The notes under the pieces are model-generated. The model worked only from the letters and a program-made list of their open reading frames with translations. It was not told where the DNA came from and searched no databases. Shown here piece after piece: positions 3,104-43,389 of a DNA stretch of 64,000 bases (position 1 is its first letter; each line of letters opens with the position of its first letter). Both the position numbers and the translations under genes were made by a program. The DNA comes from Sphingopyxis panaciterrulae (GTDB lineage Bacteria > Pseudomonadota > Alphaproteobacteria > Sphingomonadales > Sphingomonadaceae). The stretch is taken from contig NZ_JACIJH010000001.1 in NCBI RefSeq assembly GCF_014199295.1, forward strand, positions 248,001 to 312,000, given 5' to 3'.

Positions 3104-3118
3104 GTTCTCTATATGTTC
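3104..3118 (-). promoter_or_regulatory. LexA (SOS) box of the imuA operon
   Basis: The plus strand reads GTTC-TCTATAT-GTTC, an exact match to the alphaproteobacterial LexA site GTTC-N7-GTTC. It lies between the predicted -10 element and the imuA start codon, where bound LexA would block transcription. Confidence 0.9.
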
Positions 3119-3178: not shown

Positions 3179-3310
3179 GGATTTGGAAGGTTCAATACCC
3201 TCCTCGTCACCCCGGGCTTGATCCGGGGTCCCCTCAGCCACGGAGAAAGCGGGACCCCGGATCAAGCCCGGGGTGACGAAGCCGGAAAGGCCACGCTCCG
3301 CCTTTCAAAC
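3179..3310. repeat. Composite palindromic repeat, full copy 1 (core 28-bp perfect inverted repeat)
   Basis: The core is a perfect 28-bp inverted repeat: arm 3205-3232 (CGTCACCCCGGGCTTGATCC...) and arm 3251-3278, with an 18-base loop. Outside it, GGATTTGGAAGG on the left and CCTTTCAAAC on the right recur around the copies at 40848-40982 and 57114-57246. The element fills much of the gap between imuA and the efflux operon and has no coding capacity. Confidence 0.85.
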
Positions 3311-40236: not shown

Positions 40237-40818
40237 ATGGTCAAACTGAACAAGATCTACACCCGCACCGGCGACGGCGGCACGACCGGACTCGTCGACG
40301 GCTCGCGCATCGCCAAATCGGCGCCGCTGATGGCGGCGGTCGGCGATGTCGACGAAGCGAACAGCGCGGTCGGCCTCGCGGTCGCCGCGCTGTCCGCGGA
40401 CAGCGGCGAGGCGGCGATGCTCGCGCGCATCCAGAACGAGCTGTTCGACCTCGGCGCCGACCTTGCCACTCCCGCCGATGCCGAACACGGCTTCGGCCCG
40501 CACGACATGGCGCTGCGCATCGTCCCGGCGCAGATCGCGCGGCTGGAGGCGGAGATCGACGCGATGAACGCCGCGCTCGCACCGCTCACCAGCTTCATCC
40601 TGCCGGGCGGGACAGAGGCGGCCGCCCGCCTCCACCTCGCGCGCGCGGTCGCGCGCCGCGCCGAGCGCGCCGCGGTCGCGGCGGGGGAGGCGCGCGACCT
40701 CAACCCGCTCGCGCTCGCCTATCTCAACCGCCTCTCCGATCATCTCTTCGTGATGACGCGCCACATCAACGCGGCGGCGGGCGGCGACATCCTCTGGAAA
40801 CCCGGCGCCACGCGCTGA
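40237..40818 (+). CDS. Cob(I)yrinic acid a,c-diamide adenosyltransferase, PduO type
   Basis: The 193-residue enzyme starts MVKLNKIYTRTGDGGTTGLV with the ATP motif TRTGDGGTTGL, then VGDVDEANSAVGLAVAAL, LPGGTEAAARLHLARAVARR with RAERAAVA, and YLNRLSDHLFVMTR. It makes adenosylcobalamin, needed for methylmalonyl-CoA mutase, which disposes of the propionyl-CoA formed by the valine operon in this window. No cobalamin riboswitch is visible upstream. Confidence 0.94.
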   Translation: MVKLNKIYTRTGDGGTTGLVDGSRIAKSAPLMAAVGDVDEANSAVGLAVAALSADSGEAAMLARIQNELFDLGADLATPADAEHGFGPHDMALRIVPAQIARLEAEIDAMNAALAPLTSFILPGGTEAAARLHLARAVARRAERAAVAAGEARDLNPLALAYLNRLSDHLFVMTRHINAAAGGDILWKPGATR

Positions 40819-40847: not shown

Positions 40848-40982
40848 GGATTTGGAAGGGGCCATTCCCAGTCTCGTCACCCCGGACTTGATCCGGGGTC
40901 CCGCTTTTCCACCGTGCTTAGCGGGACCCCGGATCAAGTCCGGGGTGACGAAGAAAGCAAAATCGCGCTCCTGCTTTCAAAC
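40848..40982. repeat. Composite palindromic repeat, full copy 2
   Basis: The core 40875-40950 has perfect 30-base arms (CGTCACCCCGGACTTGATCC... and its complement). The left flank GGATTTGGAAGGGGCCATTC and the right flank beginning GAAGAAAGCAAAATCGCGCT, ending CTTTCAAAC, reappear inverted at 57114-57246 and in part at 3179-3310. Confidence 0.85.
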
Positions 40983-40994
40983 CGCGCCACTAAT

Positions 40995-41009
40995 GTTCCT
41001 CATATGTTC
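40995..41009 (+). promoter_or_regulatory. LexA-type box upstream of egtB
   Basis: GTTC-CTCATAT-GTTC matches GTTC-N7-GTTC and also agrees with the imuA box beyond the core (ATGTTC, three pyrimidines, ATATGTTCT). It lies 74 bases before egtB and there is no other gene it could serve: the gene on its other side points toward it. Function is inferred. Confidence 0.6.
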
Positions 41010-41082
41010 TGGACAATCACCCCACGCCCGCCCATAATCCCTCGCTCGCGAAACCGAATCGCCGCTGGGGGATTGTTCCGAT

Positions 41083-42399
41083 ATGGCCAGCCGAACCGAT
41101 GCTTCGCCCGCCGTCGCTGCCGATCAGGTCGCGGAGCTGGCCCGGCGCTTCGCTGCGACACGCGCCCTCTCGCAGGACCTCGCCGCGTCGCTGTCCGACG
41201 CCGATGCGAGCGCGCAGTCGATGCCCGACGCATCGCCCGCCAAATGGCATCTCGCGCACACGAGCTGGTTCTTCGAAACCTTCGTGCTGCGCGACCATGC
41301 GCCCGGCTATCGCCTGTTCGACGATCGCTACCCCTATCTCTTCAACAGCTATTATGAGGCCGAGGGGCCGCGCCACGCCCGCCCGCAGCGCGGCCTGCTG
41401 ACCCGCCCCTCGCTGGACGCGGTGCGCGCATGGCGGGCGCATGTCGACGCTGCGGTGCGGGATGCGCTGCCCGGCCTGTCGCCCGCCGCGCGATCGCTCG
41501 TCGAGCTTGGCATCCATCACGAACAGCAGCATCAGGAATTGCTGCTCACCGACATCCAGCATCTCTTCGCGCAGAACCCGCTCGGCCCGGCGGTCTGGCC
41601 GGTCGACGAAACCGCATTTGCGAGTGAAGTTGCACGATTTTCCGCGGGCTTTCCGTCCGCACCCGACCCGGCGGCGGCGATGCGCTGGGTCCGCGGCGCC
41701 GAGGGCGTCGTGGATATCGGCCATGCGGGCGACGGCTTCGCATTCGACTGTGAAGGTCCGCGCTTTTCCGTGCTTCTGACGCCGCATGCCCTTGCCAGCC
41801 GTCCGGTGACCAACGGCGAGTGGCGGGCGTTCATCGCCGACGGCGGCTATCGCACCGCCTCGCTCTGGCTCAGCGACGGTTGGGCCTGGGTGCAGGCGGA
41901 GGGGATCGACGCGCCACTCTATTGGGACGGCGACCGGCACTTCACCCTGTCAGGGTGGCAGGCGATCGATCCCTCTGCGCCGGTCGCCCACATCAGCTTC
42001 TACGAAGCCGATGCCTTCGCGAGCTGGGCCGGCGCGCGCCTGCCGACCGAGGTCGAGTGGGAGGCGGCGGCGGCCTCGCTCGATCCGCACGGCGGACAGC
42101 AGCTCGATGCCGCCGGTCCGGCCCATCCCACCGCCGCGTCGGCAGCCGACACGTTGCTGCAACAGATGTTCGGCAGCGTGTGGGAATGGACCGGCAGCGC
42201 CTATCGTCCCTATCCGGGCTTCCGTCCCGCCCCCGGCGCGGTGGGCGAATATAATGGCAAGTTCATGAGCGGCCAGTTCGTGCTTCGCGGCGGAAGCTGC
42301 GCGACGCCGCGCGGCCATATGCGGGCCTCCTACCGCAATTTCTTCCACCCCCACCAGCGCTGGCAATTCACCGGCCTGCGTCTCGCCAAGGATCTCTGA
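41083..42399 (+). CDS. egtB: EgtB, ergothioneine biosynthesis sulfoxide synthase
   Basis: The 438-residue protein has an N-terminal DinB-like domain with the iron-binding histidines H59 (WHLAHTSWFFE) and H146/H150 (HHEQQHQELLLTD), and a C-terminal formylglycine-generating-enzyme-like domain (PVTNGEWRAFIADGGYRTAS, RLPTEVEWEAAAAS, VWEWTGSAYRPYPGF, FVLRGGSCATPRGHMRASYR). It joins hercynine to a thiol with oxygen. egtD follows after 3 bases. A LexA-type box stands upstream. Confidence 0.95.
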   Translation: MASRTDASPAVAADQVAELARRFAATRALSQDLAASLSDADASAQSMPDASPAKWHLAHTSWFFETFVLRDHAPGYRLFDDRYPYLFNSYYEAEGPRHARPQRGLLTRPSLDAVRAWRAHVDAAVRDALPGLSPAARSLVELGIHHEQQHQELLLTDIQHLFAQNPLGPAVWPVDETAFASEVARFSAGFPSAPDPAAAMRWVRGAEGVVDIGHAGDGFAFDCEGPRFSVLLTPHALASRPVTNGEWRAFIADGGYRTASLWLSDGWAWVQAEGIDAPLYWDGDRHFTLSGWQAIDPSAPVAHISFYEADAFASWAGARLPTEVEWEAAAASLDPHGGQQLDAAGPAHPTAASAADTLLQQMFGSVWEWTGSAYRPYPGFRPAPGAVGEYNGKFMSGQFVLRGGSCATPRGHMRASYRNFFHPHQRWQFTGLRLAKDL

Positions 42400-42402
42400 A
42401 CC

Positions 42403-43389
42403 ATGGGCGTCGTGCGTCAACTTCGTCAAGTTTCGGCCGACAACGACGGCATCGATCTCGCCTTCCGCGCCGACGTCCGCGCCGGACTGACGCAGGCGCA
42501 AAAGGCGATTCCGGCGCGCTGGTTCTACGACGCGACCGGCTCGGCGCTGTTCGAGGACATCACTGCGCTCCCCGAATATTATCCGACCCGCAGCGAAACC
42601 GATCTGCTGCAACGCCACGCCGCGGCGATCGCGGCAGCGATCGGCCCCGGCCGCGCGGTCGTCGAACTCGGCTCGGGCAGCTCGACCAAGACGCCGCTGC
42701 TGCTCGAGGCGATCGCTCCCGCCGCCTATGTTCCGGTCGACATTTCGGGCGATTTCCTGCGGGGCAGCGCCATGGCGCTCGCGGCGCGTTTTCCGGGTCT
42801 GCCCATCTATCCGGTCGAGGCCGATTTCATGCAGGCGGTCGATCTGCCGCGCGAGATCGCCGCTCTGCCGAAGCTCGGCTTCTTCCCCGGATCGACGATC
42901 GGCAATATGGTCGCGCGCACGGCGGTCGACCTGCTCAGGAACTGGCGGGGGTCGCTCGGCGACGGGTCGCTGTTGCTGATCGGCGTCGACCGGATCAAGG
43001 ATGTCGAAACGCTGATCGCCGCCTATGACGACCCGGCCGGGGTCACCGCGGCGTTCAACCTCAACCTGCTCGAACGCATCAACCGCGAACTGGACGGCAC
43101 CATCCCGGTCGAGAATTTCAGCCACCGTGCCGTCTGGAACGACATTTATGCGCGGATCGAGATGCATCTCGTCGCCGCCTGCGCCATGGATTTCCAGGTC
43201 GACGGGCGCGCCTATCATATGGCGAAGGGCGAGACGATCCACAGCGAAAACAGCCACAAATATGGCCCGCGCGACGCGAACCTGCTGCTCCGCGCCGGCG
43301 GCTGGACCCCGCTCGCGACCTGGGACGACGCCGATCCGGCCTTCGCGCTGATTCTTGCCGAAGCCACCGCCTTCCGCTCCGCCCCTTGA
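42403..43389 (+). CDS. egtD: EgtD, histidine N-alpha-methyltransferase
   Basis: The 328-residue protein shows the EgtD pattern: IPARWFYDATGSALFEDITA, LPEYYPTRSETDLLQRHAAA, SAM-binding VVELGSGSSTKTPLLLEAIA, FFPGSTIGNM and the histidine-site region GETIHSENSHKY. It trimethylates histidine to hercynine, the EgtB substrate. No egtA, egtC or egtE is present, which fits the short EgtB/EgtD route common in Proteobacteria. Confidence 0.96.
   Translation: MGVVRQLRQVSADNDGIDLAFRADVRAGLTQAQKAIPARWFYDATGSALFEDITALPEYYPTRSETDLLQRHAAAIAAAIGPGRAVVELGSGSSTKTPLLLEAIAPAAYVPVDISGDFLRGSAMALAARFPGLPIYPVEADFMQAVDLPREIAALPKLGFFPGSTIGNMVARTAVDLLRNWRGSLGDGSLLLIGVDRIKDVETLIAAYDDPAGVTAAFNLNLLERINRELDGTIPVENFSHRAVWNDIYARIEMHLVAACAMDFQVDGRAYHMAKGETIHSENSHKYGPRDANLLLRAGGWTPLATWDDADPAFALILAEATAFRSAP

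Follow-up and report, generated by a model that had tools for sequence, protein, structure and literature searches.

The stretch of DNA analyzed here (the window, 64,000 nucleotides of Sphingopyxis panaciterrulae) contains a gene pair of the ergothioneine pathway, egtB and egtD, which encode adjacent EgtB and EgtD equivalogs that both score over the cut-offs of their models (Table 1). Only 3 bases separate the two genes, so that the pair reads as an operon. Ergothioneine is a protective thiol and serves as a small-molecule antioxidant. Ahead of egtB lies a LexA-type SOS box, GTTC-CTCATAT-GTTC, with 73 bases between the box and the ATG. The initial annotation had claimed that such a box precedes egtB, that egtBD is its only possible target, and that its orientation relative to the gene is opposite to that of the box at imuA. 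Direct reading of the sequence confirmed the box. The adenosyltransferase gene on its other side is encoded on the + strand and stops before reaching it, which leaves egtB as the sole neighboring gene that the box can serve, and the difference in orientation also holds, with imuA lying on the - strand.

Table 1. Positions, in the window, of the features at egtBD and of the imuA box used for comparison
Feature	Position	Strand	Remark
pduO-type cob(I)yrinic acid a,c-diamide adenosyltransferase	40237..40818	+	TIGR00636; not a target of the box
LexA-type SOS box GTTCCTCATATGTTC	40995..41009	+	direct reading of the sequence
-35 hexamer TGGACA of putative promoter P1	41010..41015	+	starts at the base right after the box
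-10 hexamer CATAAT of putative promoter P1	41033..41038	+	spacer of 17
EcfG-like element GAAAC-N16-GATT (presumed P2)	41050..41074	+	a few bases before the start codon
egtB, ergothioneine biosynthesis protein EgtB	41083..42399	+	TIGR03440, 575.6 bits (cut-off 360)
egtD, L-histidine N-alpha-methyltransferase	42403..43389	+	TIGR03438, 365.1 bits (cut-off 290.9)
LexA-type box of imuA (comparison)	3104..3118	+	imuA gene on the - strand

Two promoter-like sequences accompany the box. The first, P1 (TGGACA-N17-CATAAT), is the only sigma70-like site between positions 40780 and 41150, a region in which shuffled sequences contain a mean of 0.1. By adjoining the -35 hexamer of this promoter-like sequence, the box takes a position that would fit an operator blocking a putative promoter. 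The second, P2, lies closer to egtB and resembles the EcfG consensus of Sphingopyxis granuli, GGAAC-N16-CGTT, in which the AAC is reported to be nearly invariant and the -10 part flexible (PMC7083833). The element keeps the AAC and departs from the consensus at the second base; we infer that it is an EcfG promoter. The box itself was considered as an EcfG -35 element as well and was rejected, its GGAAC being on the opposite strand and pointing away from egtB. A search for known RNA elements in the 5' region of egtB returned 6 Rfam matches up to an E-value of 1, none of them at the gathering score.

The interval from the adenosyltransferase gene to the box also contains an inverted pair of the palindromic repeat CCCCGGACTTGATCCGGGG (40880-40945). 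The same repeat is found at 3210-3273, 15371, and 34303 of the window, which gives 6 matches with at most one mismatch where 0 are expected.

The box and its putative promoter within the genus

EgtB was found in 73 of the 80 genomes of the genus that were searched, at 77 places, and the upstream DNA was read for 74 of these places; a partial match in G065 and two pieces in G063 were left out. A search among the egtB orthologues of related genomes, which the initial annotation had suggested, recovered the box in 71 of the 72 orthologous copies of the genus (the copy of the window included), at about the same distance from the gene. The single ortholog that does not have it (L303, in genome G036) carries repeat-like DNA at the place where the box and the promoter are expected, and two diverged paralogs (L301 and L302, with 65-67% identity) are likewise without a box. 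All eight half-site bases are invariant in the 69 distinct rows of the genus, the spacer positions vary, and the columns 3-40 bases upstream of the box hold at most 0.35 bits. Only one further box is present in the 30 longer loci of the genus (126,661 bases). As a control, the box that the genome studied here has at a GFA-domain gene was present in 1 of 28 genus genomes.

P1 is kept together with the box. A P1-like sequence, defined as at least 8 of the 12 consensus bases in the best of a few placements, lies within a few bases 3' of the box in 70 of 70 genus rows. Its -35 hexamer reads TAGACA, TGGACA, TAGACT, or TGGACT in 69 of these rows and TAGGCA in the remaining one, and its spacer, taken from the best placement in a small search, measures 17 in 69 rows and 18 in one. 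The P2 element reads GAAAC-N16/17-GATT in 61 of the 70 rows and has AATT instead of GATT in the other 9; the form GAAAC-N16/17-[GA]ATT thus differs from the consensus given above for S. granuli (PMC7083833).

Boxes at egtB in other genera of the family

Across the family, 397 genomes were searched and EgtB was found in 315. From outside the genus, a first sample of 62 loci (L204-L265), consisting of 22 best matches and 40 loci chosen for genus coverage, was drawn before any targeted additions. A protein motif served to place 54 of these loci, and the box is present in 7 of the 54, against 0-2 for each of 11 permuted half-sites; the 8 unplaced loci were scanned whole and contain no box. Later loci were partly targeted: genera g91, g57, and g87 were searched after boxes had been seen there, and g74, g22, and others were then added. 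Taking all 128 loci outside the genus together, boxes occur at 31 of the 120 placed loci and permuted half-sites at 0-4, numbers that describe a targeted sample and are not a frequency; 97 of the 128 loci are without a box. These 31 loci have the spacing of 7; for nine alternative spacings between 3 and 12, the counts are 0-9 loci. The spacing of 5 accounts for 9 loci, eight of which read GTTCTNTGGGTTC and one of which (L309) does not, and we take the GTTCTNTGGGTTC matches for codons close to the 3' end of the preceding gene.

The box is unevenly spread: it was found in 16 of 54 loci of g91, 7 of 8 of g74, 3 of 3 of g87, 2 of 5 of g22, 1 of 2 of g90, and 1 of 1 each of g57 and g68, and in none of the remaining 54 loci. 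Its placement varies as well. In nine loci of other genera that were displayed, the box lies between the end of the adenosyltransferase gene, as read from translations, and egtB; in g91, it overlaps the start codon of egtB in the opposite orientation. Among the named records outside the genus (79 loci, L081-L159, of which 76 are placeable), 5 have a box. Four of these are Sphingomonas loci of the start-codon type, and the fifth is L103 (Novosphingobium profundi), a GC-rich site far upstream that was taken as chance.

Do the start-codon boxes of g91 and of the named Sphingomonas records result from selection for LexA binding? They could instead reflect the context of ribosome-binding site and start codon (GGAGAAC...ATG), as the box includes the ATG and often a portion of a GGAG motif, a context that the permutation control does not match. 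However, both half-sites are found at the exact spacing in those 16 g91 loci and in the four Sphingomonas loci, and some of the boxes (L269 and L285) have no GGAG directly before them. We regard the start-codon context as a possible but doubtful origin of these boxes and favor LexA selection.

In an EgtB tree built from 119 rows by a quick method, each of the two placements requires at least two changes, with gains and losses not distinguished; the tree has many open forks, L114 sits on a very long branch, and L103 was kept labelled, which inflates the "start" count. Since the positions and orientations of the box differ among the genera, the egtB box was likely gained more than once among sphingomonads.

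LexA-type boxes in the genome and the proposed control of egtBD

The LexA box of the Alphaproteobacteria, as described for Caulobacter crescentus in excerpts of two reports, is GTTC-N7-GTTC (PMC4211646, PMC12907096). The genome to which the window belongs (4.43 Mb in 35 contigs) has 89 exact sites of this pattern, whereas the reversed pattern has 30. It encodes one LexA, which has the Pfam DNA-binding domain and scores 164.1 bits with TIGR00498 (cut-off 110.95), and a box lies just ahead of lexA. Others are found ahead of recA, uvrA, uvrD, radA, rmuC, a ribonucleotide reductase gene, two imuA-like genes, and SRAP genes. The exact core, the spacing, and the location at a promoter are shared with the alphaproteobacterial SOS regulon as excerpted, lexA and recA carrying the box here, and the egtB box has the same core and spacing as the lexA and recA boxes of its own genome. 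The box has the orientation of the gene at lexA, recA, radA, rmuC, and uvrD and the opposite orientation at uvrA, the ribonucleotide reductase gene, and both imuA-like genes. The ImuA of the window matches NF033429 with 33.8 bits, below the cut-off of 150, and both ImuA matches of the genome are below this cut-off.

We also ranked the 89 sites with a spacer matrix built from 11 sites at SOS and repair genes, each of which was left out when it was itself scored. The egtB box ranks 5th, with a score that is reached by about 0.09% of random spacers of 65% GC. The ranking is a rough one: the left-out boxes of lexA, rmuC, and recA rank 27th, 23rd, and 16th.

In general, it is established that LexA acts by repression and that RecA triggers its self-cleavage. 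We hypothesize that in undamaged cells LexA would occupy the egtB box, against the -35 hexamer of P1, and exclude RNA polymerase. Upon DNA damage, RecA would become activated, LexA would cleave itself, and P1 would open, so that egtB and egtD would be co-transcribed and more ergothioneine synthesized. P2 starts 40 bases beyond the box and would allow the general stress response to drive the egtBD operon separately. In this model, we infer that LexA occupies the box, that damage induces the operon, that P2 is an EcfG promoter, and that ergothioneine is of benefit during damage. The SOS reading put forward at the outset is supported by the conservation of the box, its recurrence in other genera, and the adjoining conserved sigma70-like promoter, and on these features of the sequence we consider it very probable that the egtB box is a LexA operator that places egtBD in the SOS regulon.

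How much of the control of egtBD, then, would fall to LexA? It could be that EcfG is the real controller and that the LexA box does no more than trim the basal output of P1, so that ergothioneine would hardly respond to DNA damage. For S. granuli TFA, egtB and egtD (SGRAN_4050 and SGRAN_4049) are listed in the EcfG general stress regulon, and their expression is reported to fall in an ecfG mutant; in the genus studied here, the P2 element is conserved beside the egtB start codon. The words LexA and SOS have 0 occurrences in the main text of the S. granuli regulon paper (PMC7083833). During anoxia, the same strain induces lexA, recA, radA, dinG, two imuA operons, and SRAP genes (two imuA-like genes and SRAP genes being found in our genome too), and the main text of the report does not mention egtB, ergothioneine, or the locus numbers 4049/4050, so that egtB is absent from the SOS genes named there as anoxia induced (PMC6472365). 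However, half-sites without a single change across the 69 distinct genus rows would be hard to explain for an idle input, and the box is present in other genera, too. We consider this EcfG-centered reading improbable. As egtBD is reported to be EcfG dependent in S. granuli (PMC7083833), SOS would not be the only stress signal to act on it, and the two inputs, SOS and EcfG, probably converge on egtBD.

The conserved direct repeat might also be the site of another regulator or an upstream promoter element. It adjoins a -35 hexamer, where activators also bind, and the spacer matrix separates repair genes poorly, as the rank of lexA illustrates. Yet its core and spacing match the boxes of lexA, recA, uvrA, radA, the imuA-like genes, and other genes of the genome, and the variable distances elsewhere, together with the reversed overlap with the start codon in g91, suit a repressor better than an activator, which makes a site other than that of LexA very unlikely. 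Finally, the initial annotation had weighed a chance occurrence of the 8-base core ahead of egtB, and although the window count alone is not significant (3 exact cores against 1.43 expected, with at least 3 in 21 of 100 shuffles), the conservation in the genus at about the same distance excludes chance for practical purposes, as does a box far commoner in other genera than permuted half-sites.

We found no statement on LexA control of egtB in literature covered mostly as titles and the beginnings of abstracts and including few subscription papers. The putative target differs from those of the alphaproteobacterial SOS regulon in that egtBD makes a small-molecule antioxidant and not a protein of repair, mutagenesis, or division. 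In Mycobacterium smegmatis, a member of a distant phylum, H2O2, mitomycin C, UV, and zeocin leave most genes of the DinB superfamily uninduced; according to the excerpted report, egtB is one of two exceptions among them and responds most strongly to diamide, and no LexA box is described there for it (PMC10693628).

Detoxification genes and further boxes

Boxes were also followed at other genes in samples of 30 genus genomes. One precedes the gene of a glutathione S-transferase (L340, C19:18306; relatives L341-L367) in 27 of the 28 genus genomes that have the gene, beginning 39-49 bases before the start, a position from which the neighboring gene on the far side, encoding a MoCF-domain protein, could be controlled as well. 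Another is found in 28 of 29 genus genomes ahead of the gene of a 117-amino-acid glyoxalase-family protein (L396, C1:533112; relatives L397-L424), where it begins 51-58 bases before the start. The glyoxalase assignment is based on PF00903, which barely exceeds its cut-off in our genome and gives a clearer match in a relative, and on a PDB relative (9.9e-16). The GFA-domain gene, whose box is confined to our own genome, was rejected as an SOS target.

The boxes of the glutathione S-transferase and the glyoxalase-like gene are as conserved as that of egtB, which suggests that the SOS response of the genus has a detoxification arm and that DNA damage may be answered by chemical protection as well as by repair. 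When and why do bacteria make ergothioneine? To our knowledge, this is largely an open question, and a conserved LexA-type operator, as predicted here, would tie its synthesis to DNA damage. We lean towards a broader model, which we hold to be rather probable as a whole: LexA would control egtBD, the glutathione S-transferase, and the glyoxalase-family protein as a chemical-protection arm alongside DNA repair, egtBD would integrate SOS and EcfG via two adjacent promoters, and egtB would have come under LexA at least twice in the evolution of the sphingomonads. If this is true, the SOS response in this group would not only repair DNA but also limit further damage, by means of a thiol, a glutathione S-transferase, and a glyoxalase, and the wiring would have arisen repeatedly.

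The survey of boxes in the genome covered 49 of the 89 sites (8, 20, and 20 sites and the window's own), picked mainly for AT-rich spacers. Adjacent genes were named by eye from their translations and then checked, with 20 proteins compared to Pfam and 10 to NCBIfam; a 2'-5' RNA ligase-like match among them is marginal. The site ranked 2nd of 89 (L022 1479-1493, C5:50178) is near a gene for an 85-amino-acid protein, which matched no family, and also precedes an rpsB-like gene, named by eye. The boxes ranked 9th and 10th (L033 1506, C18:37105, and L028 1532, C9:27231) have only short reading frames beside them. The ribonucleotide reductase gene mentioned above encodes the large chain (L021, C5:14383) and has its LexA-type box before the start.
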